From positions 1 to 60,342 of the forward strand of contig JAUXWS010000057.1 of assembly GCA_030685015.1 (NCBI GenBank): a DNA stretch of 60,342 nucleotides, written 5' to 3'. Positions within the stretch are counted from its first letter, which is position 1. Every line of letters starts with the position of its first letter. The notes under the pieces were generated by a model. The model saw only the letters and a list, made by a program, of their open reading frames with translations, searched no databases and was not told the origin of the DNA. Position numbers and translations under genes: made by a program. Below are positions 21,554 to 37,565 of this stretch, piece after piece. This DNA comes from a bacterium (GTDB lineage: Bacteria; CAIWAD01).

Positions 21554-21587
21554 AACCAGGAACGCCGGCTCGTCCGGCGTTCTGGTT
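21554..21587 (+). terminator. Strong hairpin between the HTH gene and the RND operon
   Basis: Arms AACCAG-G-AACGCCGG and CCGGCGTTCTGGTT pair over 14 bp with one bulged G and a 5-nt loop. It sits 27 bp after the HTH stop and 15 bp before the RND adaptor start. The stem is very stable but no T-run follows on the plus strand, so it may attenuate or shield rather than fully terminate. Confidence 0.55.
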
Positions 21588-21602
21588 AAAAATGGACCGT
21601 CG

Positions 21603-22841
21603 ATGAAAGACACCACCCGCAGCACCCTGGGGATCTCCGCCATCATCGTCGTCCTGGGCGTGGCCGGCTTCTTCCTGCTCATGCACCGGGGCCGGCCCGG
21701 CGAGGGGCCGCCGCGCGGCGCGCCGGCCCGCTCCGTGGACCTGCAGGTGGTGCGCTACGAGCCGCAGGCCACCACCGTCCGCGGACTGGGACGCGTCCAG
21801 AGCGCCGGCGACTTGGTGCTGGCGGCCCAGGTGGGAGGCCGCGTCCTGGCCACGGCCCACCCCCTCGGCCTCAAGCCGGGACTGGCCGTCCCCCGCGACG
21901 GCCTGCTCTGCCTCATCGACACGACGGACTACGCCCTGGAGGTGCGCCGCCTGCGCGGCCAACTGCGGCAAAGCGAGGAGCAACTGGAGCTGGCCCGCGC
22001 CGCCACGGCCCTGGCCCGCATGGACCTGGAGCGCCTGGAGGCCCTCCTCAAAGCGGACAATGCCAGTCCCCAGGCCGTCGAGCAGGCCCGTTTCACGCTG
22101 CTGGGCCGGCAGGAGAAGGAGATCGGGCTGGCCGCCCAGACCGGGCCGGAGGGCAGCGTCACCCTGGCCCTGCGCAAGGCCGAGCTGCAATTGGAGCGCT
22201 GCCGCATCACGGCGCCCTTCGACCTGGAGGTGGGCGCGGGCGACCTGGTGCCGGGGACGCTGCTGGCGCCGGGTCAGACCGTGGCCCGCGTGCTCAACCT
22301 GGCCGATCTGGAGCTGCGCGTCCCCCTGCGGGACAGCGAGGCCGCCTGGATCAGCCAAGCCCCGGCCGACCGGGAGGTGCGCCTCTCCTCCACCGAGAAC
22401 AGCGGGGCGGACCAGGTCTGGCGTGGTCGGCTGGCCCAGCTTTCCGGCAGGCTGGATCCCACCCAGCAGACCCGCGAGGCCGTGGTGCACGTGCCGGGCG
22501 GCCAGGCGGGGCTGCGCGCGGGCATGCTTGTCGAGGCTGTCTTCACCGGTCGCGTGCTGGAATCCGCCCTGCGCATTCCGCGGCGGGCCCTGCGCGAGAA
22601 TGACCGCGTACTCCTCTGGCGCGGCGGACGGCTGGAGATCGCCCAGGTGGAGGTGGCCTGGACAGGCCGCCACGAGGCGCTCCTGATAGGCGGCGTGGCC
22701 GAGGGCGACACCCTGGTGCTCACCGCGATCCAGGATCCCGTGCCCGGCATGCTGCTGCGCGCCAACGGAGCGCCCGCCCCTGCCGACGGTGCCGTGCCGG
22801 CAAAGGGCGAGGGTTCCGGGAAGGCCGGAGGCCGCCCGTGA
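21603..22841 (+). CDS. RND efflux periplasmic adaptor (membrane fusion protein)
   Basis: The 412-residue protein has an N-terminal membrane anchor (ISAIIVVLGVAGFFLLM), a split biotinyl-lipoyl region (VLAAQVGGRVLA... and CRITAPFDLEV), a coiled-coil hairpin (about residues 115-190, RQSEEQLELARAATALARMDLERLEALL) and a beta-barrel/membrane-proximal part. This is the HlyD/AcrA-like design that links an RND pump to its outer-membrane channel. No lipobox Cys is present. The pump gene overlaps its stop by 4 nt (GTGA). The C-terminal tail is Ala/Gly/Pro-rich. Confidence 0.9.
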   Translation: MKDTTRSTLGISAIIVVLGVAGFFLLMHRGRPGEGPPRGAPARSVDLQVVRYEPQATTVRGLGRVQSAGDLVLAAQVGGRVLATAHPLGLKPGLAVPRDGLLCLIDTTDYALEVRRLRGQLRQSEEQLELARAATALARMDLERLEALLKADNASPQAVEQARFTLLGRQEKEIGLAAQTGPEGSVTLALRKAELQLERCRITAPFDLEVGAGDLVPGTLLAPGQTVARVLNLADLELRVPLRDSEAAWISQAPADREVRLSSTENSGADQVWRGRLAQLSGRLDPTQQTREAVVHVPGGQAGLRAGMLVEAVFTGRVLESALRIPRRALRENDRVLLWRGGRLEIAQVEVAWTGRHEALLIGGVAEGDTLVLTAIQDPVPGMLLRANGAPAPADGAVPAKGEGSGKAGGRP

Positions 22842-25800
22842 CCTCCCTCCTGCGCTGGGGCATCCGCAACCTGCTCACCATCAACGCCATCATCGCCCTC
22901 GTGCTGATCTTCGGCGTGATCAGCATGCGCACCATCAATCGCGAGACCTTTCCCACCGTCATCCCCGACCAGGTGGAGATCAGCGTGCCCTTCCCCGGCG
23001 CCTCGGCCCAGGAGGTGGAGGAAGGCATCATCCTCAAGCTCGAGGAGGCGATCGAAGGCATCCCCGAGATCGAGGAGGTGCGCGCCACGGCCATGGAGAA
23101 CATGGCCTCCATGCTCGTCATCCTGCGCACGGGGGCCAGCGTGCAGGACCGGCTGCAGGAGCTGAAGAACGCGGTGGACGGCATCGTGGGCCTCCCGGCC
23201 GACGCCGAGCGGCCCATCGTCTCGCTCCAGCGGCGCGTCTCCCGCGTGATGACCCTGGCCCTGCATGGATCGGCGGACCGCGAAAGCCTGCGCCGCACGG
23301 CGGAGCGTCTGCGCGAGGAGCTGCAGGACCTGGACGCCGTCTCCCTGGCCAGCGTCCAGGGCGTGCCCGAGCGCCAGATCGCCATCGAGCCGCGCGAGGC
23401 GGACTTGCGCCGCCTGGGTCTCAGCTTCGACGAGATCACCAGGCGGGTGCGCGACTACAGCCTCAACCTGAGCGGCGGCAGCATCAAGACAGATGTGGAG
23501 GAGCTGCGCCTGCGCGTCTACGGACGCCGCTACGAGGCCGCCCAGTACGCCGACATCCCCCTGCGCGTGCTGCCCTCCGGCGCCATCATCCGCCTGGGCG
23601 ACGCGGCCGACGTGCGCGAGGACTGGGAGGACCGGCCCGACGCCCTGTGGTACCAAGGCAAAACCGCCGTCACCATCCTGGTCGAGAAGACGAACGACGA
23701 GGACAGCATCACCATCGTCAAGGCGGTCAAGCAGTGGCTGGCGGAGGCCACGAACCAGCTGCCCGGGGACCTGGAGCTGACCATCGTGCGCGACACGACC
23801 ATCGGCCTGCGCCAGCGCATCCAGCTCCTGGCGACCAACGGCCTGCAGGGGCTCTTCCTCGTCCTCTTCACCCTCACCCTCTTCCTCAACCTGCGCCTCG
23901 CCGCCTGGGTGGCCCTGGGCATCCCCGTGGCCTATGCCGGCATGTTCTTCCTCATGGGTTTCACCCCGGCCACGATCAACGTCATGTCCCTCTTCGGCAT
24001 GATCCTCGTGCTGGGCATGCTGGTGGACGACGGGATCGTGGTGGCCGAGAACATCTACACCATGACCGAACAGGGCGTGCCGCCCCACGAGGCGGCCATC
24101 CGCGGCACGCGCGAGGTCATTCCGGCCGTGGTCGCCTCCATCTCCACCACGGTGATCGCCTTCATCCCCTTCTTCTTCATGGAGGGGCGGATGGGCATGT
24201 TCATCTGGCAGATGGCCCTCATGGTGATCCTCGCCCTCGCCTTCAGCCTGCTCGAGTGCATCTTCCTGCTGCCGCCCCACCTGGCCCACAGCCGCGCCCT
24301 GCGCGCCAACCACAAGCCGGTCGGAGCCCTGCGCCGCCGGATCAACGGCTGGATCGATCTGGTCATCCGCCGCTGGTTCTCGCGCAGCCTGGCCGCCATC
24401 CTGCGCGTCCACTGGGTGACGGTGAGCATCGGCTCAAGCGCGCTGCTGCTCTCCATCGGCATGCTGACCAGCGGCCGCCTGCCCTTCCAGTTCTTCCCGC
24501 GCATCGACCAGGACGACGTCATCCTCGAGCTGCGCATGGCGGCCGGCACCCGCGAGCGCCGCACGCTGGAGGTCTTGCAGGAACTGGAGCAGGTCGCCCT
24601 GGGCATGGAGGAGTGGCTGCAGGCCGCCCAGCCGGACGGCCAGCGCGTGCTGCAGTCCATGACGGTCGAGTTGGGGCCGCAGAGCGAGCAGGGGCGCGTC
24701 ACCCTGCGCCTGCTCGATTCCGAGGTGCGGGCCATGGCCAGCCAGGATGTCGTGCGCGAATGGCGCCGCCGCCTGCCTCCCGTGCCCGACGCGGAGGACC
24801 TGACAGCCGGGCAGTCCGGCCGCAGTTTCGGCCAGCCCGTCAACCTCCGCATCTCGGGGGCCGACCCCGCGGAGCTGGACCGGGCGACGGAATGGCTCAA
24901 GGCGCGCCTCAAGCAGCTGCCCGCCCTCACCGACATCAAGGACAACCGCAGCCTGGGCAAGCGCGAGCTGCGCCTGCGCATGAAGCCCCAGGGCGAGGCC
25001 TTGGGCCTGACGCTGAGCGAGGCGGCCCGCCAGGTGCGCCAGGCCTTCTATGGACAAGAGATCCTCCGCTACCAGCGTGGCAAGGACGAGATCAAGGTCT
25101 GGGCCAGGCTGGGGGCGGCCGACCGGGCCAGCGTGGAGCAGCTGCGCGACATCCGCCTGCGCACCCCCAGCGGGGCGCTGGTGCCCTTCGGCGAGGCGGT
25201 GGATTTCGAGATCGGACCCTCGCTGCAGGAGATCCGCCACGTCAACGGCCGCCGCGTCATCGAGGTGAGCGCCGACGTGGATGAGAAATCCCCGGGGGCC
25301 GCCTCCGTGCAGGCGGATCTGCGGGCCCTGGTCCTGCCTGAACTGGCGCGCGCCCATCCCACCATCCGCAGCGCCTGGGGCGGCGAGCAGGAGCAGCAGG
25401 CCATGTCCAGCGCCAGCATGAGGCGCACCTTCCCCATGGCCCTCCTCGGCATCGCCTTCATCCTCATCGCCACCTTCGGCAGCCTGGTGCAGATGGGCAT
25501 CGTCCTGGCCATGATCCCCCTGGGCCTGGTGGGGGCCATCTTGGGCCACCTGCTGCTGGGCAAGCCCCTCTCCATCCTCTCCGTCTACGGACTGGTGGGA
25601 TTGGCCGGCATCATCGTCAACGCCTCGGTCGTTTTCGTGGACCGCATCAACCGCGAGCTGGAACTGGGCAACTCCGTCCGCGACGCCGTCTACCAGGCCG
25701 GCCTCAAGCGCATCCGGCCCATCCTGCTCACCACGGCGACAACGGTGGCGGGCATGATGCCCATCATCCTGCAGACCAGCCGCCAGGCCCAGTTCCTCAT

Positions 25801-26035
25801 CCCCATGGCCATCTCCATCGCCTTCGGCCTGCTCTTCGGCACCATCTTCACCCTCTACATCATCCCCTCGCTTTACATGGTCACCAACGACCTGCGCCGG
25901 CTGGGGGCCTACTTCGTCAACCGGCTGGCGGGACGCTTCGTGATGGGAGAGCCGCAGGAGCCGGGCTCCTGGTGGCCCACGGCCGAATCGCTCGAACCGG
26001 CCGTGATCCGAGCCCGACAGGAGACACAGCCATGA
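22838..26035 (+). CDS. RND-family efflux pump, inner-membrane subunit
   Basis: The 1065-residue length, two large periplasmic loops and 12 helices fit the AcrB/HAE-1-like group. The first helix (LLTINAIIALVLIFGVISM) leads into TFPTVIPDQVEISVPFPGASAQEVE, a hallmark of the family. The proton-relay helix holds GMLVDDGIVVAENI with Asp397-Asp398, and the second half repeats the pattern (GIAFILIATFGSLVQM and GLAGIIVNASVVFVD). It exchanges protons for substrates captured from the membrane or periplasm; drugs, lipids and other small molecules are all possible. It is coupled to both the adaptor gene and the channel gene by 4-nt overlaps. Confidence 0.93.
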   Translation: MTSLLRWGIRNLLTINAIIALVLIFGVISMRTINRETFPTVIPDQVEISVPFPGASAQEVEEGIILKLEEAIEGIPEIEEVRATAMENMASMLVILRTGASVQDRLQELKNAVDGIVGLPADAERPIVSLQRRVSRVMTLALHGSADRESLRRTAERLREELQDLDAVSLASVQGVPERQIAIEPREADLRRLGLSFDEITRRVRDYSLNLSGGSIKTDVEELRLRVYGRRYEAAQYADIPLRVLPSGAIIRLGDAADVREDWEDRPDALWYQGKTAVTILVEKTNDEDSITIVKAVKQWLAEATNQLPGDLELTIVRDTTIGLRQRIQLLATNGLQGLFLVLFTLTLFLNLRLAAWVALGIPVAYAGMFFLMGFTPATINVMSLFGMILVLGMLVDDGIVVAENIYTMTEQGVPPHEAAIRGTREVIPAVVASISTTVIAFIPFFFMEGRMGMFIWQMALMVILALAFSLLECIFLLPPHLAHSRALRANHKPVGALRRRINGWIDLVIRRWFSRSLAAILRVHWVTVSIGSSALLLSIGMLTSGRLPFQFFPRIDQDDVILELRMAAGTRERRTLEVLQELEQVALGMEEWLQAAQPDGQRVLQSMTVELGPQSEQGRVTLRLLDSEVRAMASQDVVREWRRRLPPVPDAEDLTAGQSGRSFGQPVNLRISGADPAELDRATEWLKARLKQLPALTDIKDNRSLGKRELRLRMKPQGEALGLTLSEAARQVRQAFYGQEILRYQRGKDEIKVWARLGAADRASVEQLRDIRLRTPSGALVPFGEAVDFEIGPSLQEIRHVNGRRVIEVSADVDEKSPGAASVQADLRALVLPELARAHPTIRSAWGGEQEQQAMSSASMRRTFPMALLGIAFILIATFGSLVQMGIVLAMIPLGLVGAILGHLLLGKPLSILSVYGLVGLAGIIVNASVVFVDRINRELELGNSVRDAVYQAGLKRIRPILLTTATTVAGMMPIILQTSRQAQFLIPMAISIAFGLLFGTIFTLYIIPSLYMVTNDLRRLGAYFVNRLAGRFVMGEPQEPGSWWPTAESLEPAVIRARQETQP

Positions 26036-27297
26036 TGAGCCTGCGCCATTGGCCGGCCGTCCTGGTCCTGGCCCTGCTGCCGGCCGTCCGCGCCGCCGCC
26101 CCTCCCCTCGACCTGGCCGGGGCGGAGCGGGAGCTGCTGGCCGGCCATCCCCGGGCCCTGGCCGCCGCGGAGGAGCTGGCCCGCGCCCGCAGCGCGGCCT
26201 GGGCCGGCTGGTCGGGCCTGCTGCCGCGGGCGGACCTGAGCAGCAACTGGACCCGCTACGAGGCGGTGCCCGCCGGCGGTGTCTGGCGCGAAGACGACGA
26301 GACGCAGCGCCATGTCCTGGCCCTCAGCCAGCCCCTCTTCGCCGGAGGCCGCCTGGCCGCGGGCGCGGCGGCTGGCAGCGCCGGCCTCAAGGCGGCCCGC
26401 GAGCGGCACCGCGCCGCCCTGGCGCAACTGGTCTACGATCTGCGCGCCGCCTGGGTGGACTGGCTGGCCGCCCGTGAGCTGCTGCAGATCGCCCAGGCGG
26501 GGGAGGAATTCGCCCAACGCCAGCTGCAGCGGGCCCTCCAGCAGGAGGAGCAGGGCGTGGCCAGCCGCATCGACCGCCTCTTCATCGAGAACTCGCTGGC
26601 CCTGGCCGGCTTGCAGCGCGAGGACGCCCTGACGACGGAGCTGACGGCGCGTCTCCGCCTGGAGGCGCTCCTGAGGACGGAGCTCTCCTCCGAGGCGGAG
26701 CTGGAGGACCTGGCCCGGCTCCTGGCCGGCCTCGGCGCCCCCCCGGCGGAGGCGGGGGAGGCTTCGCCCGAGCTGGCCTCCCTGCGCTGGGACATGCGCC
26801 AGGCCGCCTGGCAGGGCGTGGCGACGGCCGGGTCGCTCTGGCCCACGCTCAGCGCCGGGCTGACCTGGAGCAACGAGGGGAGCGATCCCTTCACCTACGA
26901 CAGCCGCCACACGACGCGCACGGTGGGTCTCAGCCTCAGCTGGAACATCTTCCGCGGCGGCGCCAACAGCCTGGCCAGCCTGGGCGCACTGGCCACGGCC
27001 CGCCGGGCGCGGCACCTGCTCGACGCGGGCGAGCTGGGCCTGCACGTGGAACAGGAGACGCTGGGCCGCCAGGAGGAGGCGCAGCGGCGCAAGCTGGAGC
27101 TGGCGGAGCGCTCCCGGGCCATCTCCCGGGAGAACCTGGGCCTGCTGGAGCAGAAGTACGGACTGGGGATGGTGCCGGTGACGGACCTGCTGCAGGGCGA
27201 GCAGAACCTGCGCGGCGCCCACGGCGGGCTGGTCCAGGCCCAGTCCGCCCTGCTCAAGGCGCACTGGTCGCGAGAACGCCTGGCGGGACGCTGGTAG
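26032..27297 (+). CDS. TolC-family outer-membrane efflux channel
   Basis: The 421-residue protein starts at the ATG at 26032 overlapping the pump stop, with a signal peptide (HWPAVLVLALLPAVRAAA). It shows two internal TolC-like repeats: LSQPLFAGGRLAAGAAAGSA in the first and LSLSWNIFRGGANSLASLGA in the second, each followed by a long helical hairpin. The C-terminal YGLGMVPVTDLLQGEQNL is characteristic. It completes a three-part export system with the two genes before it. Confidence 0.9.
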   Translation: MMSLRHWPAVLVLALLPAVRAAAPPLDLAGAERELLAGHPRALAAAEELARARSAAWAGWSGLLPRADLSSNWTRYEAVPAGGVWREDDETQRHVLALSQPLFAGGRLAAGAAAGSAGLKAARERHRAALAQLVYDLRAAWVDWLAARELLQIAQAGEEFAQRQLQRALQQEEQGVASRIDRLFIENSLALAGLQREDALTTELTARLRLEALLRTELSSEAELEDLARLLAGLGAPPAEAGEASPELASLRWDMRQAAWQGVATAGSLWPTLSAGLTWSNEGSDPFTYDSRHTTRTVGLSLSWNIFRGGANSLASLGALATARRARHLLDAGELGLHVEQETLGRQEEAQRRKLELAERSRAISRENLGLLEQKYGLGMVPVTDLLQGEQNLRGAHGGLVQAQSALLKAHWSRERLAGRW

Positions 27298-27309
27298 GGA
27301 TCGACAACC

Positions 27310-27906
27310 ATGACGCAGAGAACCTTCTTCAGCCCCCCGATCCCGGCAACACCTCCCAAGGTCCTGGTCAGCCGCTGCCTGACCGGGGAGCGCTGCCGCC
27401 ACGACGGCGCGGCGCGCCCGGCCGCCGCCCTGGAGCTGTTGCCCCGCCATTGGCTGCTGCTCGACCTCTGCCCGGAGAGCGACCTGGGCATGGGCGTGCC
27501 GCGTCCGCCCATCGGCCTGCTCACGGAGGGGGGTCGCCTGCGCCTGGTGGAGCGCAACGGCGGGCGTGATTGGACGGAGGAGATGGAGTCCTGGTGCGCT
27601 CTCCTGGCGCGCGTCCTGGTGGCGGACGGGGTGGCGGGGGCCGTGCTCAAGGCGCGCTCGCCCAGCTGCGGCCTGGGGGACGCCGATCTCTTCTCCAGCC
27701 GCGCCCTGATGGCCTGGCCCGGCCCGCCCGAGGCGGCCCTGCGCCGGGACGCGGATGGCCTGTTGACCCTGGCCCTGCGCGCCCACGACGGCGGCCTGCC
27801 CCTCATCGGCGATGAGAGCCTGGCCGGGGAAGCGGCCCGCGCCCGTTTCATCGAAGCCGTGGAGAGGCGGCACCGCGCCGCTGCCCCGACCCAGCCCTGG
27901 TTTTGA
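27310..27906 (+). CDS. DUF523-family protein
   Basis: The 198-residue protein has the hallmarks of DUF523 (YbbK-like): VLVSRCLTGERCRHDG near the N-terminus, LCPESDLGMGVPRPPI, and LKARSPSCG in the second half. The conserved cysteines suggest metal or redox chemistry, but no function is established. It begins 12 nt after the TolC-like gene, so it is probably cotranscribed, perhaps only by chance of position. Confidence 0.85.
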   Translation: MTQRTFFSPPIPATPPKVLVSRCLTGERCRHDGAARPAAALELLPRHWLLLDLCPESDLGMGVPRPPIGLLTEGGRLRLVERNGGRDWTEEMESWCALLARVLVADGVAGAVLKARSPSCGLGDADLFSSRALMAWPGPPEAALRRDADGLLTLALRAHDGGLPLIGDESLAGEAARARFIEAVERRHRAAAPTQPWF

Positions 27907-28006: not shown

Positions 28007-28945
28007 TCAGCGGATGAGCGTGACGGGCAGGCTGTGGCCTCCCGCCCGCACCACGTAGGGACCGCTGGGGGCCGGGCGTCCCCGCTGGTCCAGGCCGTCC
28101 CAGATCAGCTCCAATGGACCGGCGCCGCCGAGGGGAAGCCGCCGCACCTGCTCCCCTGCCAAGTTGTGGATCGTGAGCGCCTCCGGCAGCGGCCCCAGGT
28201 CCAGGCGGATGCGACAGGCCGGATTGAAGGGATTGGGCCAGGCGCTGAGGGCGGACGAGCGGGGAAGGAGACCGGGATCCAGCGTGGCCGGATTCGCCCC
28301 CCAGCACACCAACTGGGCCAGGCCCGTCGACCAGTACCAGTTGAGCAGGATCTCCTCGCTGGCATCGCCCTCGATGTTGCCCGTCCAGGGTCCGGAGAGA
28401 TAGCCCGCCCCTGTCTGTTCGGCCAGCACCACCGCCCCGGTGGCCAGGCGGCGCACGGTCCAGGTGCTTGTCCAGGTGCTGCCATTCCAGGAGTGCCAGC
28501 TCCAGGCCAGCTCCAGCTGGCCGTCCCCGTCGAAGTCGCCGATACCGCCCTCCGTGATGTTCCCGGGCAGCAGGGCCGTGCTCCAGGCCGGGGCGGCCGC
28601 CCCGTTCTGATAGATGAAGAGACGGGCCTGCTGATCCGTGGCATTCTGCTGGCGGAAGACGCACCAGCCGTCCCGCTGCAGCCACAACTGGAAAGTGGTG
28701 CTGGCGGTGGGGGCGGGATCCTCCACGGTCCAGACCAGGGTGTAGGCATCCGCCCCGTCGAAGAACCAGCAGCCGGTGCCGTCCTCCTGGATCAGCTCGC
28801 GGACGCCGTCGCCGTCCAGGTCGGGCCAGGACCAGCTCACCACCACGTCGTTCTCCACCACCGCCCACTTCTGGACGATCTGCGCCTGGGTCGACCCGGC
28901 CAGGCCCAGAAGCAGGCCAAGGAGGGACACGATTGAAAGGTTCAT
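28007..28945 (-). CDS. Secreted protein with C-terminal PNPFNP sorting domain
   Basis: The 312-residue protein has a clear signal peptide (LSIVSLLGLLLGLAGSTQA). The middle part has FG-GAP/VCBS-like Asp-rich loops (DLDGDGVRE and DFDGDGQLE) that often bind calcium, and several Trp-rich strands. It ends with WPNPFNPACRIRLDLG and a FlgD-like domain (LVWDGL-type WDGLDQRGRPAPSGPYVV). It is the last gene of the minus-strand operon beginning at 35316, 10 nt after the UT-M23 gene, so it may be a partner or substrate of that system. Confidence 0.85.
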   Translation of the reverse strand: MNLSIVSLLGLLLGLAGSTQAQIVQKWAVVENDVVVSWSWPDLDGDGVRELIQEDGTGCWFFDGADAYTLVWTVEDPAPTASTTFQLWLQRDGWCVFRQQNATDQQARLFIYQNGAAAPAWSTALLPGNITEGGIGDFDGDGQLELAWSWHSWNGSTWTSTWTVRRLATGAVVLAEQTGAGYLSGPWTGNIEGDASEEILLNWYWSTGLAQLVCWGANPATLDPGLLPRSSALSAWPNPFNPACRIRLDLGPLPEALTIHNLAGEQVRRLPLGGAGPLELIWDGLDQRGRPAPSGPYVVRAGGHSLPVTLIR

Positions 28946-28955
28946 GATGCCTCGC

Positions 28956-31166
28956 TCAGCTATCCTGCAGATGGAAGTCGGCCACCGGCGCGCCGCTCCC
29001 GGTGGTGACGCGGAAACGGACCAGGCCGCGGTGCGCCTCGGCGCTGAACTCGCCCAGCAGCACGGCGCGGCCTCCCGCCTCCACGCGTGAACGTGCCGCC
29101 AGCCCAGGGAGCGGGTCGTCGACCCGGCGGAAGTCAGTGGTCAGCAGGCCGTCGCTCTCCAAGGAGAGCAGGCGACGCCAGCCCCGGGCCAGACCGAAGG
29201 AGCGGAGGTCGCAGGTGGCATGCAGCTCCTCGGGACCCCGGCAGGGCAGGCAGGAGGCCAGCAGCAGCAGCAGGTCGACCAGACTGTCGCGGCCGCACAG
29301 GCGGCGGCGCTCCGGATCGCCCTCCGGCAGGGGCAGCAGTTGGACCCAGCCCGGCCACCAAGCCACCTGGGCCGTGCTGTCGCCGTCGTCCAGGATGAGC
29401 CGCCCTCCACCTCCAGCCCGCAGCGTCAGCTCCCCGGTGCGTTCGGGTCCGCCCTTGCCCATGCGGCAGGTCCAGCGCCAGCTTCGTCCCGGCACGGCCA
29501 GCGGGAAGAAGGCGCTCCAGTCGGGCCAGTCCAGGTCGGCCAGCGCCGCCACGCGCATGCCCTGCCGCGGGCGGCCCAGCGGATGGAAGAGGGGCGGCGC
29601 CCCGTCGCGCAGCTCCACCCAGGATCCGAAACGGGCGGGCAGGCTGCGCGAGGCGAGCCAGGGACCCTCGTTCAATTGAAGGTGCAGGTGCGGCTCCGGG
29701 CTGCGGCCGCTGTTGCCCAGCTGGGCCAGCTCCTGGCCCCGGGCCACGCGCTGTCCGGGCAGGACGCGCAGGCTGCCGGCGCGCAGGTGCGCCAGGAGGC
29801 TGGCCGTGCCGCCATCGTGGCCGATCATCACCCAATTGCCCCAGGGATTGGCCGTGTCGGCGGCATGGACCGGGTTGTCGGGCAGGCTGCCCTCCACGGC
29901 GATGACCCTCCCCTCCGCCGGCGCCTTCACGGGGCAACCCCAGCCGTGGAACTGGTCCACCTCGCTTCCGGGCCAGTCGGCGGCCCTGCCCTCGGCGTCC
30001 AGCAGCATGAGATCCCAGGCCTCGGCGCCGGGCAGCGTGTTGTGCGTCAGCTCGCCGCCCGGCCCCTGGGTGACGGTCCAGATGCCGAGGAGGGGCAGGC
30101 TGAGCACGGGGGCCGGCACGAGGCGGTCGCGCTTCCAGCGCTCGAAGGCGCGCAGGTTGTCCTCGGCCCGGCCCACCAGCTCCAGCGGCGGAGCCCAGAT
30201 GTCGAGCCGCTCGCAGTCGAGGCCGCCCTGCCGCAGGGGGAGGAGGAAGAGCCAGACGGTCAGGGTGAAGGGGAGGGCGAGCACGGGCAGGCCCAGCACG
30301 GCCAGCGGCGTGTGGAGTCCGATGGCGACCAGCATGGTGGCCGCCACCGCCAGGGCCGCGTAGACCAGGCTGCGCGGGCTGAGGGCCAGGAAGAGGCCGC
30401 AGAGCGCGCCGGCGGTCAGGATGGCGTTGAAAGCCACGAGGCCGAACGCGGCCTGTTGGATGGCGCCGCCGGCCAGGACCTGCAACAGGACGGTGCCCAG
30501 GACGCCGCCCAACACCATGGCCAGGGCCGTGATGCGGGAGCCCAGCAGCAGGCCGGTCAGGACCAGCAGGCCGCCCGTCAGGGAGGGCAGGAACAGCAGG
30601 GAGCCAAAACTGCGCAGGTATTGCTGGACGAGCAGGGGCAGCCACCGACCCAGCTCCGCCTCCGCCTGGTCCAATCCAGGCAGCAGCGGCTGCAACTCGG
30701 GCCAGGGCAGCGGTCCGTGGTGGAGCACGACGGCGCCGGCCAGTCCGGCGAAGGTGGCCAGCACGAAGGGCATGGCCAGGACGGGCAGGCCGCGCCGCGC
30801 CAGCAGGGGGCCCAGCACTGTGACGAGCAGGGCGGCCAGGGCCGCGATGAAAGGCACCAGCAGCAGGGAGCCGGCCCCCGCCGGCAGATAGGTGGCGAGG
30901 GCGGCGCCGCTGAGCAGCCCGGCGCCGTGATGGAGGCCCAGCCGGTGCCAGGGGGAGTCCGGCGCCAGGAGACGTCCACAGGCGGCCGCCGTCGCCAGGC
31001 CCAGCAGGCCGAATCCGGCGTGGCGTGGACTGCCCGCCAGGGCCAGCAGGAAGAAGAGGCCGCTGCGCCGCCGGGAGGTGAAGAGCACGCCGCCCACGGT
31101 GCCCAGCAGCTCATCGGCCAGACGGAAAGGCAGGGGTCGCGGCGGCGGGGCGCCTGGCTCCCTCAT
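28956..31166 (-). CDS. Urea-transporter-like / M23 metallopeptidase fusion
   Basis: This 736-residue protein joins two families. Residues about 15-320 resemble urea transporters: two homologous halves, each with a LPVLAMPFVLATFA / LPVLALPFTLTVWLF signature, plus AFNAILTAGALCGLF and about ten helices. Residues about 370-500 form an M23 (LytM-like) peptidase with His375 and Asp385 as likely zinc ligands, His460 in LLAHL and His493/His495 in PHLHLQ. The C-terminal third (about 510-736) is beta-rich and unassigned. The M23 part should face the periplasm and cut peptidoglycan or peptides. The gene overlaps the PLP-enzyme gene by 4 nt. Such fusions occur in other bacteria, but their biology is unsettled. 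Confidence 0.85.
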   Translation of the reverse strand: MREPGAPPPRPLPFRLADELLGTVGGVLFTSRRRSGLFFLLALAGSPRHAGFGLLGLATAAACGRLLAPDSPWHRLGLHHGAGLLSGAALATYLPAGAGSLLLVPFIAALAALLVTVLGPLLARRGLPVLAMPFVLATFAGLAGAVVLHHGPLPWPELQPLLPGLDQAEAELGRWLPLLVQQYLRSFGSLLFLPSLTGGLLVLTGLLLGSRITALAMVLGGVLGTVLLQVLAGGAIQQAAFGLVAFNAILTAGALCGLFLALSPRSLVYAALAVAATMLVAIGLHTPLAVLGLPVLALPFTLTVWLFLLPLRQGGLDCERLDIWAPPLELVGRAEDNLRAFERWKRDRLVPAPVLSLPLLGIWTVTQGPGGELTHNTLPGAEAWDLMLLDAEGRAADWPGSEVDQFHGWGCPVKAPAEGRVIAVEGSLPDNPVHAADTANPWGNWVMIGHDGGTASLLAHLRAGSLRVLPGQRVARGQELAQLGNSGRSPEPHLHLQLNEGPWLASRSLPARFGSWVELRDGAPPLFHPLGRPRQGMRVAALADLDWPDWSAFFPLAVPGRSWRWTCRMGKGGPERTGELTLRAGGGGRLILDDGDSTAQVAWWPGWVQLLPLPEGDPERRRLCGRDSLVDLLLLLASCLPCRGPEELHATCDLRSFGLARGWRRLLSLESDGLLTTDFRRVDDPLPGLAARSRVEAGGRAVLLGEFSAEAHRGLVRFRVTTGSGAPVADFHLQDS

Positions 31167-32554
31167 GGGCGGGATGTCCCGTCCTGCAAGTGCGGTGGCA
31201 GCTGGTCCAGCTGCCGCCAGTAGGCGGGAGTCTCCGCCTGGCGCACGAGATGGCGGCCGCCGCGGGGATCCACCAGGACCACCGCCGGCCGGCCATGGAT
31301 GAACTGCAGGCTCTGGCTGAGGTTGTAGGCCCCGATATGGCGCACCACGAGCAGGTCCCCGGGTCGCAGGGCGGGCAGGGGCACGCCCTTGCGCAGGACG
31401 TCGATCTGCATGCAGAGGTTGCCCAGCAGGGTGGTGTCCTCGAGGATCATCGAGCCCTGGCTGCCGACGGGGAGGATGTCATAGCGGTACCAGGCCGTGC
31501 TCGAGAGCAGATTGACTCCGGCGTCCACCACCAGGGCGCGGCTGCCGTCCCCCAGCCGGCGCTCCGAGACGACGCGCACCAGCAGGTGCATGGCCTCGTC
31601 CACCAGGGCGCGACCCGTCTCGAAGAAGAGCTCGGGCAGCTCCTCCCCGGGCTCCAGCGGCAGGGTGGCCAGCACGGGGCAGATCGCCTCGGCGTACTGC
31701 TGCAGGCTGGGACAGGTCACCTCGCCGCCCTGGTAGGCCCAGTGCAGGGTGTTGCGCGTGGCGAAGCCGCCCCCCATGTCCCACCAGCGCAGGCGGGCCC
31801 CGGTGAAGCGCCTCACCCAGACGGCCAGCTCCACCAGCCGTCCAGCGGCTCGCCGGTAGAGGTCCACGTTGTCCACGTAAGTGCCGATGTGCGTGTGGAG
31901 CCCGGCCAGTTCCAACTCGGCGCTGTCGGCCAGGCGGCGCGCCGCCTCGTGGGCCTGGCCCGATTCCAGGTTGAAGCCGAAACGGTCCCAGTGCTGGGCA
32001 TCCAGCTGCATGTTGACGCGGATGGCCACGGGCAGCCGGTCCCGGCCTGCCGGCAGGCCGACCTCGCGCACCAGGGCCTCCAGGCGGGGGATCTCCTCCA
32101 GGTGGTCGAGGTGGATCCTGGCTCCGCCGGCGATGGCGGCGCGCAGGGAATCGTCGTCCTTGTCCGGTCCGTTGTAGATGATGCGGTCGGCGGGGACATC
32201 CAGCTCCCGCGCCAGGCGGAACTCATGGCCGGAGACGACCTCCGCCCAAGAGCCCTCCTGCTGCATGATGCGACAGACCGCGCCCAGGTAGTTGGTCTTG
32301 TAGGACCAGGCCAGCCGCACCCGGGGATAGCGCGTCTCGAAGGCGCGGCGGAACTGCTGGACCTTGCGGCGCAGGGCGCTCTCGGAGAGCAGGTAGAGGG
32401 GCGTGCCGAAGTCCCGGGCCAGCCCGGCCAGCGGAACCCCGTCCAGCTCCTCCATCACCCGGAGGGTGGGCAGCTTGCCAAACTTGTTCTGCAGGCCGGC
32501 CTGGTGGCGGATCAACACGGGTTTCTCGTAGAGGCGGCGGGCTTCAGCGCTCAT
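31163..32554 (-). CDS. Fold-type III PLP decarboxylase (DapDC-like)
   Basis: The 463-residue protein resembles diaminopimelate decarboxylase: Lys in WSYKTNYLG would bind PLP, HTHIGTYVDN and MGGGFATRN contact the phosphate, FETGRALVDEA matches the EPGR motif, and CMQID and HIGAYNLSQS mark the second domain. It differs from housekeeping LysA in its N-terminal YEKPVLIRHQAGLQNKFGK and in its placement in a ligase operon. It may make or recognise a D-amino acid or DAP-like building block. It overlaps the upstream ATP-grasp gene by 11 nt. Confidence 0.85.
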   Translation of the reverse strand: MSAEARRLYEKPVLIRHQAGLQNKFGKLPTLRVMEELDGVPLAGLARDFGTPLYLLSESALRRKVQQFRRAFETRYPRVRLAWSYKTNYLGAVCRIMQQEGSWAEVVSGHEFRLARELDVPADRIIYNGPDKDDDSLRAAIAGGARIHLDHLEEIPRLEALVREVGLPAGRDRLPVAIRVNMQLDAQHWDRFGFNLESGQAHEAARRLADSAELELAGLHTHIGTYVDNVDLYRRAAGRLVELAVWVRRFTGARLRWWDMGGGFATRNTLHWAYQGGEVTCPSLQQYAEAICPVLATLPLEPGEELPELFFETGRALVDEAMHLLVRVVSERRLGDGSRALVVDAGVNLLSSTAWYRYDILPVGSQGSMILEDTTLLGNLCMQIDVLRKGVPLPALRPGDLLVVRHIGAYNLSQSLQFIHGRPAVVLVDPRGGRHLVRQAETPAYWRQLDQLPPHLQDGTSRP

Positions 32555-33659
32555 CGGTCGGCTCCCCGGCAGGGCGATGCACGGCGCGGCCGGAGATGCT
32601 CAGGCGCTCCAGCACGTCCAGATCACAAATGACGTCCACGGCGGCGCGGCTGTAGATGACCCCGCTGCGGGCGGGCGCCAGCGGCTCGCAGCGGCCCTCG
32701 AGGGCGAGACGGGCCAGGGCGGCTGGCAGGTTCTGCCCGGCCCCCGCGCAGAGGTAGCACCAGGCCGGAAAACGCGGATTGATCTCGATCAGGGCCAGCT
32801 CATCGTTCTCCTCCGCGCAGAGGATCTCCAGCTCGCAGGGGCCGCGCCAGCGCAGGGCGCCTATCATCCGGCGCGCCAGGTCCAGCAGGCGCGGCTCGCC
32901 CACCGTGACGCCGGACCAGGCCTTGCCCTTGTCCGTCACGCCCAGCTTGCGCATGGGCACGGCGCCGATCAGGCCGCCCGCCCCGTCCCCCAGGCAGCAG
33001 ATGTTGTACTCGAAGCCGGGCAGGCCCCGCTGGGCGATGACAGGCAGGCCCCAGCGGGCGGCGATCTCGATGAAGGCCGCTTCCGCCTGCTCGAGGACCC
33101 AGGCCTTGCGCGCCTCGTAGAAAACGCCCTTGATGTAGACCGGCTCCCGTCCGCCGGGATCGCAGAGATCCTCCCAGACCTCGCGCAGTCCCTCCAGGCT
33201 GTGCACCACCTCGGTGGGCGGCACGGCGAAGCCATGCTGCCGGCAAAACTCGGCCAGGCGCGACTTGGCGCGCATGGCGAGGCCCTGCTCGTCGGGCAGC
33301 AGACAGCGCACGCCCAGCTCCTCCAGCTCCGGCTGCAGGGTCAGGTAGAGCTCCATCTCGCTGTCCAGGGTGGGCAGGACCAGATCGAGCGGACCGTCGG
33401 CCCGCACCTGGCGCAGCTGGCCCATCAGGGCGTCGGACCCGCGGCGGGGGAAGGGCACGAGGTAGACCTCGTCGAAGAGCGACCCGCTGTAGACGCCGGC
33501 ATCCATGGGATCGTAGGCGAGGCCGACGAGGCGCCCGCGGTGCCCGGCCTCCCGCAGGCTGCGCGCCACGGCGATGCCCGGCGCCGGATTGTCCGCCGCG
33601 TTGAGGCCGCTGACGGCGATGCCGGCCCGGCGCCAGTCGGCGATGGGCTGCGGTCTCAT
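32544..33659 (-). CDS. ATP-grasp ligase (carbamoyl-phosphate-synthase-like)
   Basis: The 371-residue protein has a preATP-grasp N-terminal part (about 10-120; GIAVSGLNAADNPAPGIAVARSL) and an ATP-grasp domain (about 130-330), with YIKGVFYEARKA as the lysine strand and ELEILCAEENDELALIEINPRFPAW carrying the metal-binding Glu and Asn. Such enzymes activate a carboxylate with ATP and form an amide or related bond. It overlaps PqqD upstream (4 nt) and the PLP enzyme downstream (11 nt), so the three products should be made in step. The substrate is unknown; a peptide made or bound with help of PqqD is plausible. Confidence 0.85.
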   Translation of the reverse strand: MRPQPIADWRRAGIAVSGLNAADNPAPGIAVARSLREAGHRGRLVGLAYDPMDAGVYSGSLFDEVYLVPFPRRGSDALMGQLRQVRADGPLDLVLPTLDSEMELYLTLQPELEELGVRCLLPDEQGLAMRAKSRLAEFCRQHGFAVPPTEVVHSLEGLREVWEDLCDPGGREPVYIKGVFYEARKAWVLEQAEAAFIEIAARWGLPVIAQRGLPGFEYNICCLGDGAGGLIGAVPMRKLGVTDKGKAWSGVTVGEPRLLDLARRMIGALRWRGPCELEILCAEENDELALIEINPRFPAWCYLCAGAGQNLPAALARLALEGRCEPLAPARSGVIYSRAAVDVICDLDVLERLSISGRAVHRPAGEPTDER

Positions 33660-33937
33660 GCCGCCGCCTCCTGCTTGTCGCGCGGCAGGACGCGGTGGCG
33701 GCGCAGGGCCTGGACGAACTCGTCGAGATCGGTCGCCGCCTGGTCGGGGGCGACCTCCCAGGACTCGACCAGGGCGCGCAGGATGTCCGCCCGCGTCCGG
33801 CCCTGGATGAGGCGATCGAGGATGAAGGCGCCCGTGCCATTGGTGCTGAAGCTCAGTCCGCTGTGGTGATCGAAGAGGAAGCCCTGCGGATTGAGATGAA
33901 GGTGGGCCAGCGCGCCGGCCGCCCCGTCACTTGCCAT
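33656..33937 (-). CDS. PqqD-like (RiPP-recognition-element fold) protein
   Basis: The 93-residue protein has the small winged-helix shape of PqqD-like proteins: a strand pair (HLNPQGFLFDHHSGLSF), the conserved NGTGAFILDRLIQGRTRADIL and a C-terminal helix (DLDEFVQALRRHRVL). In PQQ and many RiPP pathways this fold binds a leader peptide and presents it to an enzyme. Here it stands next to an ATP-grasp ligase without any radical SAM gene. It overlaps the secreted-protein gene upstream by 11 nt and the ATP-grasp gene downstream by 4 nt. Confidence 0.83.
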   Translation of the reverse strand: MASDGAAGALAHLHLNPQGFLFDHHSGLSFSTNGTGAFILDRLIQGRTRADILRALVESWEVAPDQAATDLDEFVQALRRHRVLPRDKQEAAA

Positions 33938-34361
33938 GGGTCTGGGCCTTTCCCGCCCCCGCCGAGGCCGCCAGGCTGCCGTAGAGATAGAGCATCTGGT
34001 TCTCGAGGTGGTAGCCGTTCTTGTGGCACCATTCGCAGGGGCCGGCGCATTGGGCGGCGGCCACGCGCTTCTCCCAAAGGGCCACCTCCACCCCGCCGCC
34101 CGTCAGGCGGTCCGCCACCTGGAAGGCGTGCTCGAAGCGGCCGGCGGGCACCTGGAGGACCTGGTGGCTTCCATCAGCCAGCACGTTCTGGGTGCCGTAA
34201 GGGTAGAAGGAGATCCCCAGCCAGGCGGCCTTGTCCGTCCTTCCCGACACGAAGACCTTCTCCGGCTTCTGTCCCTTGGCGTCCAGTTTGAGGGTCATCC
34301 CCAGTTCCTGGGCCGTGGCGGCCTGGACCACCAGCAGCAGTCCCAGCAGCACTGCTTTCAT
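33927..34361 (-). CDS. Small secreted protein with a C-terminal CxxxCxxC motif
   Basis: I do not recognise the family. The ATG at 34361 gives 144 residues with a signal peptide (AVLLGLLLVVQAATAQ), a beta-rich middle with a YPYGTQN turn, and a CAGPCEWCHKNGYHLE segment in its last third. The His-containing Cys cluster is close to, but is not, a heme CXXCH, since CEWCH would itself read as C-x-x-C-H. A covalent heme at CEWCH therefore cannot be excluded. It is first of the coupled block (overlap of 11 nt with pqqD-like), making it a possible client or product of the downstream enzymes. It ends AGKAQTHGK. Confidence 0.6.
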   Translation of the reverse strand: MKAVLLGLLLVVQAATAQELGMTLKLDAKGQKPEKVFVSGRTDKAAWLGISFYPYGTQNVLADGSHQVLQVPAGRFEHAFQVADRLTGGGVEVALWEKRVAAAQCAGPCEWCHKNGYHLENQMLYLYGSLAASAGAGKAQTHGK

Positions 34362-34395
34362 GTCCGTCTCCCCCCTTGCCCTTGGCCATCCCCGT

Positions 34396-35316
34396 TCATG
34401 GCACGACGGCCCAGATCTGGCGGCTCCACCTCGTCCCCAGATAAAGCCAGCGGCTCTCGTGATCCTCCACCCGCTCCCAGCCGGTGGCGGCGGACAGGCT
34501 CCAGCCCGCCCCCATCTTGAAGTCCAGGCCCACGCCGATGGCCGCCCGCAAGGGGCGCGGCCCATCGTGCACGACCAGGCGCTCCACGTCGTACCAGTGG
34601 TCCAGCCGGCCGGCCAGCAGGCTGGCATGGAGACCCAGCCGACCAGCGCCCACCACGGCCGCTCCCCGCGCCAGGCCGGCGAGCTTGAGGCCCTCTTCCG
34701 ACCGCGTGGCCAGCAGGGCGATCCGTCCGCTGCCGGCGCCGAGCGGACGTCGCAGGTTCAACTCGGCGACGTGGATGCGGCCCCCCTCCGCCTCGCGGTG
34801 GGCCGGCCGCAGCCGGGCCAGGCGGATGCCCAAGACGAGCGGACGCCCGGTGGCGGGATGCGGGGACCAGGACAGCCCTCCCCCGACCAGCCAGCCGTGG
34901 CGGCTCTCCTCCCTGGCCCGTCCGGCCTCGGTCCAGGCCAGGCGCGTCGAGCTGCCGTGCCCCAGCGCCTCCACGCCCCAGCCCGGTGTGACAGCGCGGG
35001 TCAGCCACAGCGTGCGCTGCAGGCCGCGGTACTCCCAGCCATCCTCCTCCAGCCAGGCGGCGCTGCCCTCCTGGCGGAGGCGTTGGTCCGTCCAGCCCGC
35101 GGCGGCCAGCCAGCGCTCCCCGGCCCCCGCGCTGCCGAAGAGGGAAGAGCTGAAGGCCTTGGCGCGCTGGAAGCGGAAGGGGTCCTCGTCGGCGTAGCGG
35201 GCCGCCTCCAGACCGCCCCCCAGCGTGAGCCAGCGGTGTTCCATCGCCGCCCTGGCCCGGCCGCCGGAAAGGACAAGCAGGAGAAGCAGCGCCACCGACC
35301 ATGACCAGACTCCCAT
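34396..35316 (-). CDS. Secreted, probable outer-membrane barrel protein
   Basis: The 306-residue protein has a signal peptide (VALLLLLVLSGGRARA) and then alternating hydrophobic/polar strands rich in Gly, Trp and Arg (LTLGGGLEAARYAD..., GWLVGGGLSWSPHP, IAATG-like AIGVGLDFKMGAGWSLS). It ends WSRQIWAVVP, with an aromatic residue near the C-terminus. I infer a beta-barrel by this pattern, not by family match. GAGGGGAGATG before the ATG at 35316 supports the start. It heads the operon, 34 nt before the small secreted protein. Confidence 0.55.
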   Translation of the reverse strand: MGVWSWSVALLLLLVLSGGRARAAMEHRWLTLGGGLEAARYADEDPFRFQRAKAFSSSLFGSAGAGERWLAAAGWTDQRLRQEGSAAWLEEDGWEYRGLQRTLWLTRAVTPGWGVEALGHGSSTRLAWTEAGRAREESRHGWLVGGGLSWSPHPATGRPLVLGIRLARLRPAHREAEGGRIHVAELNLRRPLGAGSGRIALLATRSEEGLKLAGLARGAAVVGAGRLGLHASLLAGRLDHWYDVERLVVHDGPRPLRAAIGVGLDFKMGAGWSLSAATGWERVEDHESRWLYLGTRWSRQIWAVVP

Positions 35317-35445
35317 CACATCTCCCCTCTTCGCCGCGGAAACTGTCATCTTGGCGCCGCCGCCGTGTGGCAACAATGTGACAAGTCCCCGCCGCCGGGG
35401 GAGCCGGGCGCATTCCACCAAACGAACGACAGGGGAGATGATTGC
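35317..35445. promoter_or_regulatory. Divergent promoter region (two-component genes / envelope operon)
   Basis: A 129-bp gap lies between the minus-strand operon and the plus-strand OmpR-type gene. It should hold both promoters. Each side has a ribosome binding site (GAGGGGAG for the minus side, AGGGGAGATG for the plus side). The shared region suggests that the response regulator controls the operon, which is inference; no clear direct repeat was recognised. Confidence 0.55.
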
Positions 35446-36129
35446 ATGTCCGCCGCCCGCATCCTGATCGTCGAGGATGATCCCCACGTCCGCGACCTCA
35501 TCCATCGCGCCCTGGAGGACGAGGGGCTGTCCTGCGCGGTGTGCGGCGACCTGCGTTCCGCCTTGCAGTCCCTGCACGCCGGATTGCCCGACCTCCTTGT
35601 CCTGGACCGCATCCTGCCCGGCGGCGACGGCATCCGCATCCTGCACAAGGTGCGGGAGATCGGCTCCCTGCCCGTCCTCATGCTGACCAGCCTCAAGAGC
35701 GAGGACGACAAGGTGGAGGGGTTGGAGGCCGGCGCCGACGATTACCTGGGCAAGCCCTTCTCGCTGCGGGAGCTTAGCGCCCGCGTCCACGCCCTCCTCC
35801 GCCGCAGCCGCGCGCAACCGGGCACGAACCTGAGCCTGGGCGCCCTCAGCCTGGACAGCGACGGCCGCCAGGCCCGCCGCCACGGCCAGCCACTGGACCT
35901 GAGCCCCCTGGAGGTGCGGGTCCTGCGCATCCTGCTCCTTAACCAGGGCCGGGTCCTGGGCCGCGACGAACTGATCGAGCAGGCCTGGGGCGTGGACTAC
36001 GAGGGTTACGACCGCGCCGTGGACACGCTCATCGTCCGCCTGCGCCGCAAGATGGCCGGTCCCGGCATGCCCCAAGTGCGCACGGTGCGGGGCCGTGGCT
36101 ATTCCCTGACCCTGGACGAGGACTCGTGA
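35446..36129 (+). CDS. OmpR-family response regulator
   Basis: The 227-residue protein has a receiver domain (1-120) with Asp54 in LVLDRILPGGDG as phospho-acceptor, Thr81 and Lys103 (GKPF), then a winged-helix DNA-binding domain (about 135-225) with LSPLEVRVLRILLLNQGRVLGRDEL and TVRGRGYSL. The ATG at 35446 follows AGGGGAG. It is coupled to the kinase gene by a 4-nt overlap and divergent from the envelope operon, which is a likely target along with itself. Confidence 0.92.
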   Translation: MSAARILIVEDDPHVRDLIHRALEDEGLSCAVCGDLRSALQSLHAGLPDLLVLDRILPGGDGIRILHKVREIGSLPVLMLTSLKSEDDKVEGLEAGADDYLGKPFSLRELSARVHALLRRSRAQPGTNLSLGALSLDSDGRQARRHGQPLDLSPLEVRVLRILLLNQGRVLGRDELIEQAWGVDYEGYDRAVDTLIVRLRRKMAGPGMPQVRTVRGRGYSLTLDEDS

Positions 36130-37565
36130 GCCGCCCGCGGCGCCTGCCCGTCAGTCTGGCCGCCCGCTTCGGCCTGCTGCTGCTCCTCCTGCTCTGCCTG
36201 CAGGCCCTCCTCACCGGCCTGCTCGTCTCCCGCTGGATCCGCGCCCGCGACCTGGCCCTGCACCAGGTGGAGCTGCGCGAACAGGCCGGCCTCATCCTGC
36301 CCGCGGTGGAGGACAGCCTGCGGGCCTGGGCCGGGATGGGCCCCCTCATCAGCCGGCGGGCCGAACTGCGCCACCGCATGCAGCTCAGCCTGGGACGGCC
36401 CCAGGTGATGAGCCTGGTCTGGCTGGACGCCGGGGGCAACCTGGCGGCGGCCGGCTTCCTGGCGGAGGATCCCCGCCTGGGCGAACTCAAGGAGCTGGCC
36501 CTGGCCGGACTATCCCCCGCCGCCCTCGAGCGCTGGGCCGCCGCGCGGGAGCTGGCCCTGGTGGCGCGCCCCGCCGCCGAGGGCTGGCTGCTGCTGGCCG
36601 GGTCGCGGGGAGGCGGCCTCTGGCGGTCCGGCGGACAGGGGCTGCTCATCGCCATCCTGGCGGTTTCGGCCGCCATCGCCGGCCTGGCCGCCTGGCTGCT
36701 GGCCCGTCCTCTCCTGAGACGCCTGGGCCAGTTCCATGCCGCCTTCATCCGCCTGGGCCGGGGGGAGATGGACAGCCGCCTGCCGACGGGACGCGACGAC
36801 GAACTGGGCGGGTTGGCGCGGGAGTTCAACCGGATGGCGGCCCGCCTTGAGGACCTGACCGCCGAGCTGGAGAAAGGAGACCGCCGCCGCCGGCAGCTGG
36901 TCAGCGAGGTCAGCCATGAGTTGGGCGCCCCCCTGACCACGATCATGGGCAACCTGGATCTCCTCCTGCGGCAGCCATTGCCAGACGAGACCCGCCGCGC
37001 CATCCAGCTGTGCATGGCCCAGGCCCGGCGGCTGGACGCCCTCGTCACCGACCTGCTCGACCTGGCCCGGCTCGACGAGGCCGGCCTTCACCTGCAGCGG
37101 CGACCGCTCGATCTGGCCGACCTGGTGGACGGCGAGATCGCCGCCGTCGAGCTGGCCTGCCTGGACCGGGGCATCGCCCTGGAGTGGAGGCGTCCCGCCA
37201 CGCCGGCCCTGGTCCTGGCCGACGAGTCCCGCCTGGCGCAGGTGCTGCGCAACCTGCTGCGCAATGCCGTCAACCAGTTGGCGGCCGGGCCGGAGGGCGA
37301 GGCCCGCCTTGCCGTGCGCCTTGAGACAGCTGAGGATCAGGTCCGTCTGGAGGTGGAGGACAACGGCCCCGGCATCCACCCGGCGGACCTGGCTTACATC
37401 TTCGATCGCTACCACCGGCCCCACAGCAGCCGCGGCGAGGGCAGCGGCCTGGGCCTATGCATCAGCCGGCGCCTGGCGGAACTGCATGATGGCGCGCTGG
37501 AAGGGCTCTCCCGGGGAGTGAGCCAGGGCGCCGTCTTCGTGCTGACACTGCCCCGCGCCCATTGA
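36126..37565 (+). CDS. Sensor histidine kinase with HAMP domain
   Basis: The 479-residue kinase has a first membrane helix (GLLLLLLLCLQALLTGLLV), a periplasmic sensor part (about 40-175) with no recognised fold, a second helix (LIAILAVSAAIAGLAAWLLA), a HAMP region, and a phospho-acceptor His264 in SEVSHELGAPL. The ATPase part carries an N-box (QVLRNLLRNAVNQL), EVEDNGPGI and GEGSGLGL. The GTG start overlaps the regulator stop. The sensor domain faces the periplasm, so a cell-envelope signal is likely. Confidence 0.92.
   Translation: MSRPRRLPVSLAARFGLLLLLLLCLQALLTGLLVSRWIRARDLALHQVELREQAGLILPAVEDSLRAWAGMGPLISRRAELRHRMQLSLGRPQVMSLVWLDAGGNLAAAGFLAEDPRLGELKELALAGLSPAALERWAAARELALVARPAAEGWLLLAGSRGGGLWRSGGQGLLIAILAVSAAIAGLAAWLLARPLLRRLGQFHAAFIRLGRGEMDSRLPTGRDDELGGLAREFNRMAARLEDLTAELEKGDRRRRQLVSEVSHELGAPLTTIMGNLDLLLRQPLPDETRRAIQLCMAQARRLDALVTDLLDLARLDEAGLHLQRRPLDLADLVDGEIAAVELACLDRGIALEWRRPATPALVLADESRLAQVLRNLLRNAVNQLAAGPEGEARLAVRLETAEDQVRLEVEDNGPGIHPADLAYIFDRYHRPHSSRGEGSGLGLCISRRLAELHDGALEGLSRGVSQGAVFVLTLPRAH

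Follow-up and report, generated by a model that had tools for sequence, protein, structure and literature searches.

A conserved gene cassette with an apparent PqqD–leader pair between an ATP-grasp ligase and an FslC-like decarboxylase, tied to a urea transporter-type channel

Overview

The window (the whole stretch of DNA analysed here, 60,342 nucleotides) carries a seven-gene run on its minus strand. Judged by its sequence, this run is a real conserved system and more than a chance arrangement, because the seven-gene order recurs in three further genomes and its four-gene core in approximately 40 loci. The fixed core, as read from sequence, consists of PqqD, an active-type ATP-grasp ligase, an FslC-like decarboxylase with a YxxP tag, and a urea transporter-type (UT) channel accompanied by M23 in type I cassettes or by Sir2 in type II cassettes. 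The most interesting point is an apparent pair of RiPP recognition element (RRE) and leader between two enzymes of a metabolic pathway. We consider it moderately probable that the cassette is a conserved small-molecule pathway, in which PqqD docks on the tag, the ATP-grasp enzyme ligates an amide, the FslC-like enzyme decarboxylates it, and the UT channel exports the product with the help of M23 or Sir2. By these sequence comparisons the cassette is not a standard RiPP locus, as no precursor was found near the cassettes, and its decarboxylase is not LysA; it is probably not a peptidoglycan M23 system either.

Gene order and conservation

All seven open reading frames are present between positions 35316 and 28007 (Table 1), and they are closely packed. 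The barrel gene ends at 34396 and the small-protein gene starts at 34361, which leaves a 34-nt gap. The small-protein and PqqD genes then overlap by 11 nt (33927-33937), the PqqD and ATP-grasp genes by 4 nt (33656-33659), the ATP-grasp and decarboxylase genes by 11 nt (32544-32554), and the decarboxylase and UT-M23 genes by 4 nt (31163-31166); a 10-nt gap precedes the last gene, which encodes the FG-GAP/PNPFNP protein. Within the run, no promoter- or terminator-like sites were found with a consensus that may not suit this host. An initial annotation of this DNA had described the seven-gene run with its gaps, overlaps, and domain assignments, and the open reading frames, spacing, and Pfam searches agree with it; its label of "barrel" for the first protein is plausible, but that protein has no Pfam match.

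Table 1. Features of the seven-gene run, with positions in the window
Feature	Position	Strand	Evidence
Secreted, probable outer-membrane barrel protein (306 aa), accessory	34396..35316	-	ORF; no Pfam/NCBIfam match; barrel inferred only
Small secreted protein (144 aa), signal peptide and Ig/FN3-like beta-sandwich, C-terminal Cys pair, accessory	33927..34361	-	AlphaFold2
PqqD-family RiPP recognition element (93 aa)	33656..33937	-	PF05402 6.6e-13
ATP-grasp ligase (371 aa), predicted active	32544..33659	-	ATPgrasp_Ter 6.6e-8 (weak) and kept residues
FslC-like PLP decarboxylase (463 aa) with N-terminal tag, predicted active	31163..32554	-	7kh2 match 3e-65
Leader-like tag YEKPVLIRHQAGLQNKFGK, decarboxylase residues 9-27, proposed PqqD docking site	32474..32530	-	YxxPx[ILVFM]
			
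UT channel (~20-310), M23 (~350-530), and C-terminal beta-rich domain	28956..31166	-	Pfam, fold match; M23 predicted cytosolic
Secreted FG-GAP protein, PNPFNP/FlgD_ig C-terminal domain, lineage-specific accessory	28007..28945	-	FlgD_ig 2.9e-6, FG-GAP 1.2e-4

All seven genes stand in identical order in four of the five genomes sampled from this small phylum, and these four represent two genera. Across the three relatives (L006, L007, and L008), the decarboxylase is 86, 85, and 68% identical, the ATP-grasp ligase 80, 80, and 59%, and the syntenic barrel protein 49, 35, and 28%; synteny of the FG-GAP/PNPFNP gene is restricted to these three, i.e., to the window's own family. The core (PqqD, ATP-grasp, decarboxylase, UT-M23) extends much further, to approximately 40 further loci with the same order in many unrelated lineages. 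In a 386-genome sample across the domain, 15 genomes outside the window's family have a close ATP-grasp, and all 15 have PqqD directly upstream of it and the decarboxylase directly downstream, with a second ATP-grasp lying between PqqD and the decarboxylase at one locus (L046). The UT gene belongs to the same run in 12 of the 15, and the other three encode UT-M23 elsewhere in the genome. A second domain-wide sample held largely the same genomes as the first. Cassettes were found in 17/246 genomes of the phylum of locus L012 (Planctomycetia) and in 11/241 genomes of a further phylum, and forty loci were tabulated for the comparison of variants and tags. A scan of genome contigs with very specific patterns returned only four loci. 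No cassette relatives were found in plasmid and phage records, and further viral scans gave nothing beyond the phage contig described below. A second ATP-grasp-like match at L038 was discarded as a PurD-like gene outside the system.

The claim of a dedicated conserved pathway of PqqD, ATP-grasp, a non-housekeeping decarboxylase, and UT-M23, made in the initial annotation, is borne out by this order kept across lineages. The outcomes that it named as counting against the claim were an unconserved order and grouping with housekeeping homologues; instead, the order is conserved and the decarboxylases form a clade apart from LysA. As it had also said, no radical SAM gene belongs to the cassette. 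We found no account joining these parts in open-licence papers, and an older one (e.g., in the amidoligase surveys of Aravind and colleagues) is possible.

Type I and type II cassettes

Type I cassettes, such as that of the window, have one ATP-grasp ligase and a UT domain fused to M23. In type II, a Sir2-type deacylase is either fused to UT or encoded after it, and most loci encode a second ATP-grasp-like protein. This second protein is probably a pseudoenzyme, because it has lost the ATP- and metal-binding residues. In Sir2, the motif GAGxSTxSGxPDYR, the HG of the catalytic site, and four zinc cysteines are conserved, with one copy cut by a contig end. UT-Sir2 is a single polypeptide with intact Sir2 motifs in Planctomycetota genomes (L012:11252-13084 and L136-L143). 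In three loci the ATP-grasp and the Orn/DAP-type decarboxylase share one reading frame (L151:8908-11397, L153:5476-7824, and L154:3985-6210); the fusions of L151 and L153 have a separate UT gene close by.

PqqD and the decarboxylase tag

PqqD has the fold of an RRE (Table 1), and this is the sole copy in the window's genome. Its best NCBIfam match, at 7.2e-12 and under the cut-off of that family, is the lasso-peptide PqqD chaperone NF033530. The motif that such an element would recognise sits on the decarboxylase, whose N-terminus carries Y/W/F-x-x-P-x-[ILVFM] in 42/42 PqqD-bearing cellular loci, a correlation that owes part of its strength to shared ancestry. These 42 are 35 of 35 PqqD-bearing loci of the tabulation, the window, its three relatives, L149 and L150 (for which PqqD and the beginning of the ATP-grasp gene were located at the edges of separate contigs, L156 and L159), and L165 (a locus inspected once the rule was already in place). 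Tyr9 is kept in 41/43 copies and Pro12 in 42/43, on par with the PLP lysine (Lys86, 41/43), and in type I the motif is mostly followed by G-x-x-N-K-[FY]-G. The motif is missing from all 14 control decarboxylases, most of which come from these same genomes.

The tag is absent in L012, whose genome has no PqqD, and in the three ATP-grasp-decarboxylase fusions, two of whose three genomes are without any PqqD. If tag and PqqD serve to keep the ligase in contact with the decarboxylase, gene fusion would be the expected outcome once both have disappeared. Counting against docking, a PqqD is encoded elsewhere in one of the fusion genomes (G774). At L143 the tag is present, the contig ends inside the ATP-grasp gene, and PqqD was not found in the assembly. 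The sole exception among PqqD-bearing cassettes, also counting against docking, is a phage contig with PqqD, ATP-grasp, and decarboxylase in which YxxP is not recognisable. This viral contig (L152/L160:3405-5919, IMGVR_UViG_3300047160_011268) also encodes a family-A DNA polymerase and has no adjacent UT-M23; it is possible that the phage uses its cassette in small-molecule or DNA modification.

Lasso peptides are known to be recognised through YxxP, and W/Y/LxxP/L/I has been reported as the sequence that PqqD-like RREs bind (PMC12710340). Near the approximately 40 cassettes, a search for a precursor gave 14 scattered motif matches among 1738 short ORFs, none of them shared. Because YxxP is the lasso recognition motif and no short ORF bearing it is shared near the cassettes, the most likely role of PqqD is to dock ligase to decarboxylase through the tag, and not to present a RiPP precursor. 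The initial annotation overlooked this leader-like tag, which is the best candidate for the ligand of PqqD. The cassette is like the lasso systems (RRE and YxxP leader, FusE/PqqD type) in that a discrete PqqD-fold protein is paired with YxxPx[ILV] and in its nearest NCBIfam family; unlike them, it carries the segment on the N-terminus of a metabolic enzyme and has no nearby precursor, no cyclase, and no lasso-type leader peptidase. With graspetide (ATP-grasp RiPP) systems it shares an ATP-grasp ligase near a peptide-recognition element, but no precursor peptide was found with the cassette and its enzyme set is different.

We weighed two RiPP-type explanations against docking. One is a classical RiPP locus, with a short precursor elsewhere in the genome on which PqqD and ATP-grasp act and from which UT-M23 removes the leader. 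PqqD and ATP-grasp are typical RiPP parts, and lasso and PQQ clusters often contain discrete RREs (PMC12710340), yet the missing shared ORF argues against this explanation, which also leaves the tag and the gene fusions unaccounted for, and we regard it as very unlikely. The other makes the decarboxylase tail itself the precursor: PqqD presents it, ATP-grasp modifies a residue of GxxNKFG, and M23 or Sir2 cuts or reverses the modification. Such a tail does resemble a leader plus core. Most type I tails have the stretch GxxN-K-[FY]-G after YxxP, and type II, with Sir2 in place of M23, has lost it. That same loss can be held against it, since Sir2-type tails mostly do without the stretch; further, there is no invariant acceptor (Lys is replaced by Val in L008, and Asn is lost in L147 and L148), and cassettes with a fused ligase-decarboxylase or without PqqD keep the enzymes and not the tail. 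We consider this explanation unlikely. The Lys of NKFG was rejected as an obligatory attachment site, as it is not invariant.

Ligation and decarboxylation

The ATP-grasp ligase has a weak match in Pfam (Table 1) and a nearest solved structure (2pn1) at 1.6e-6 only. Its K132, K177, E278, E292, N294, and R296 are kept in all active-type copies and supply the residues for binding of ATP and Mg.

The decarboxylase matches the Orn/DAP/Arg decarboxylase N domain (3e-30) and C domain (1.2e-11) in Pfam and keeps its catalytic cysteine, Cys381, in 43/43 copies. Its nearest solved relative, ahead of LysA and BtrK, is the N-citrylornithine decarboxylase FslC of rhizoferrin synthesis (7kh2), with which it has in common the stretches CMQxD and GAYNxSxxxxFI. 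It scores under the curated cut-offs of both LysA (TIGR01048, 216 vs 297.9 bits) and the FslC type (NF041039, 210 vs 500 bits), and cassette decarboxylases group apart from control decarboxylases. The Arg of the RP motif in LysA binds the distal carboxylate of DAP. This motif is absent in 20/20 aligned cassette decarboxylases and present in the LysA-type controls over the cut-off.

The substrate is likely a diamino acid amide produced by the ATP-grasp ligase, because FslC is the nearest relative, the two stretches are shared, the RP motif is absent, and the catalytic residues are kept; the guess derives solely from the comparison with FslC. The DAP or D-amino-acid substrate suggested in the initial annotation fits poorly, as the decarboxylase lacks the arginine with which LysA binds DAP and has FslC-like motifs. 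In its chemical logic the cassette resembles both FslC and the butirosin pair BtrJ/BtrK. For FslC the ligation partner is an NIS synthetase, whereas the cassette uses an ATP-grasp, and the alignment with FslC begins after the tag region. In butirosin synthesis, BtrJ and BtrK are an ATP-grasp ligase and then a PLP decarboxylase working on a carrier protein; the cassette has the same order of ligase and decarboxylase, and matches BtrK at 1e-26, but no carrier protein gene was identified at it, and PqqD and the tag are there instead.

Could the run be an ordinary housekeeping operon for lysine/DAP or polyamines whose other genes are neighbours by chance, with LysA as its decarboxylase and a UT that takes up urea? 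Both are common families, and the window's genome is without a second LysA-like gene. Set against this are a separate LysA over the cut-off in 11/20 carrier genomes, the position of the cassette decarboxylase under the LysA cut-off and apart from the controls, the absent RP motif, and a gene order conserved across lineages, which together make a housekeeping operon highly improbable. A housekeeping LysA identity was rejected for the decarboxylase on these same grounds of cut-off, grouping, motif, and separate LysA genes. In the window's genome (G000, 97% complete), no LysA exceeds the cut-off, and the cassette decarboxylase is the only LysA-like match at E < 1e-20.

The UT-M23 membrane protein

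The UT-M23 protein matches UT at 3.4e-48 and Peptidase_M23 at 9.9e-15 in Pfam, and its UT part matches the D. vulgaris UT over its length (TM 0.85 on target), a full UT fold like that of the urea transporters dvUT and UT-B. What sets it apart from those transporters is the fusion to M23 or Sir2 and the genetic link with two biosynthetic enzymes. The zinc and catalytic residues of M23 (H, D, H, HxH) are kept in 24/24 copies. The mean pLDDT of the AlphaFold2 model is 55, so only its UT fold was used and the position of M23 was not taken from it.

M23 enzymes are normally extracytoplasmic. In both variants, UT has six loop segments of net positive charge, one of them the C-terminal flank, separated by four whose net charge is approximately zero or negative. 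The fused M23 domain is probably cytosolic and not periplasmic, because of this positive-inside pattern and because the NAD+-requiring Sir2 occupies the same position in type II; this departure from an extracytoplasmic location is a prediction. The C-terminal domain of UT-M23 has weak matches to periplasmic folds of the YmcC/LolA type (best 4.4e-3), which points against a cytosolic M23.

The initial annotation had placed the processing in the periplasm. The corresponding explanation is an envelope peptidoglycan system in which M23 faces the periplasm and the cell wall receives the modified amino acid or peptide. The secreted accessory genes, the usual action of M23 on peptidoglycan, and the weakly LolA/YmcC-like C-terminal domain would all suit such a system. 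It is difficult to reconcile with a full-length UT fold whose charge bias places the C-terminal domain inside, and with an NAD-dependent sirtuin at the same site in type II, and we judge it improbable. A periplasmic role for M23 was dismissed on the UT topology and the Sir2 replacement.

Proposed pathway

In the pathway that we favor, PqqD would bind the decarboxylase tag as RREs bind lasso leaders, so that ligase and decarboxylase would be held in one complex. The ATP-grasp ligase would couple an acid to an ornithine- or lysine-like diamino acid by an amide bond, and the decarboxylase would strip CO2 from the ligated compound, much as FslC decarboxylates N-citrylornithine. On the inner side of the channel, M23 or Sir2 may then open an amide or acyl bond, the small product may pass the UT pore, and secreted barrel, Ig-like, or TPR proteins may act at the envelope end. 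Only a small and probably neutral compound would be expected to cross a urea channel, and a charged amine product is a poor fit with this.

If docking is true, recognition of a leader by an RRE, so far known for the presentation of RiPP precursors, would also link two metabolic enzymes in place of a gene fusion, and genome miners who see PqqD beside ATP-grasp would hunt for a nonexistent precursor. The cassette would also suggest that a widespread new metabolite is linked with a urea-type channel, and that an M23 peptidase can work in the cytosol and be exchanged for a sirtuin. There is a slim chance that the N-terminal tail is instead a ribosomally made carrier arm, presented by PqqD and loaded by ATP-grasp, with the decarboxylase acting on the tethered substrate and the cytosolic M23 or sirtuin releasing the product into the pore; an enzyme would then contain its own carrier-peptide pathway, with transport coupled to it.

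Secreted accessory proteins

Neither the small secreted protein nor the probable barrel protein belongs to a Pfam family. The small protein is modeled by AlphaFold2 as an Ig/FN3-like sandwich (mean pLDDT 80.7), and a fold search returned only weak FN3/Ig-type matches, none of them informative. Its family occurs in 9/44 loci and a secreted TPR protein in 26 others, and the two never occur together (Fisher p = 7e-5, uncorrected for ancestry). Five loci have a different secreted protein of ~300 aa after UT-M23. One Cys pair of the "small Cys-motif protein" of the initial annotation is widely kept, and the rest of the motif is not. The proposal there that this protein is the modified client does not hold up well with a folded Ig-like domain present in only 9/44 loci, and on the model a role as peptide substrate or client is unlikely. 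Identities as a RiPP precursor or a c-type haem protein were rejected, with CxxCH not conserved and the model being a folded Ig-like domain. In L131 (10965-13535), a single secreted ORF with three tandem small Ig-like domains adjoins PqqD.

Genomic neighborhood

In the related genomes of L037, L038, and L039, genes for a DUF4405 membrane protein and a DUF2202 (rubrerythrin-like) protein lie directly upstream of PqqD. In the window, a response regulator and a HAMP histidine kinase are encoded divergently from the operon (35365-37565, plus strand), with homologous sequence in L006 and L007, and this pair is a possible regulator of the operon. Converging on the 3' end of the operon are genes for HlyD, an AcrB-type RND pump, and a TolC-type outer membrane efflux protein (21543-27906, plus strand), and within the same interval these are followed by a gene of the 2-thiouracil desulfurase family (PF04463).
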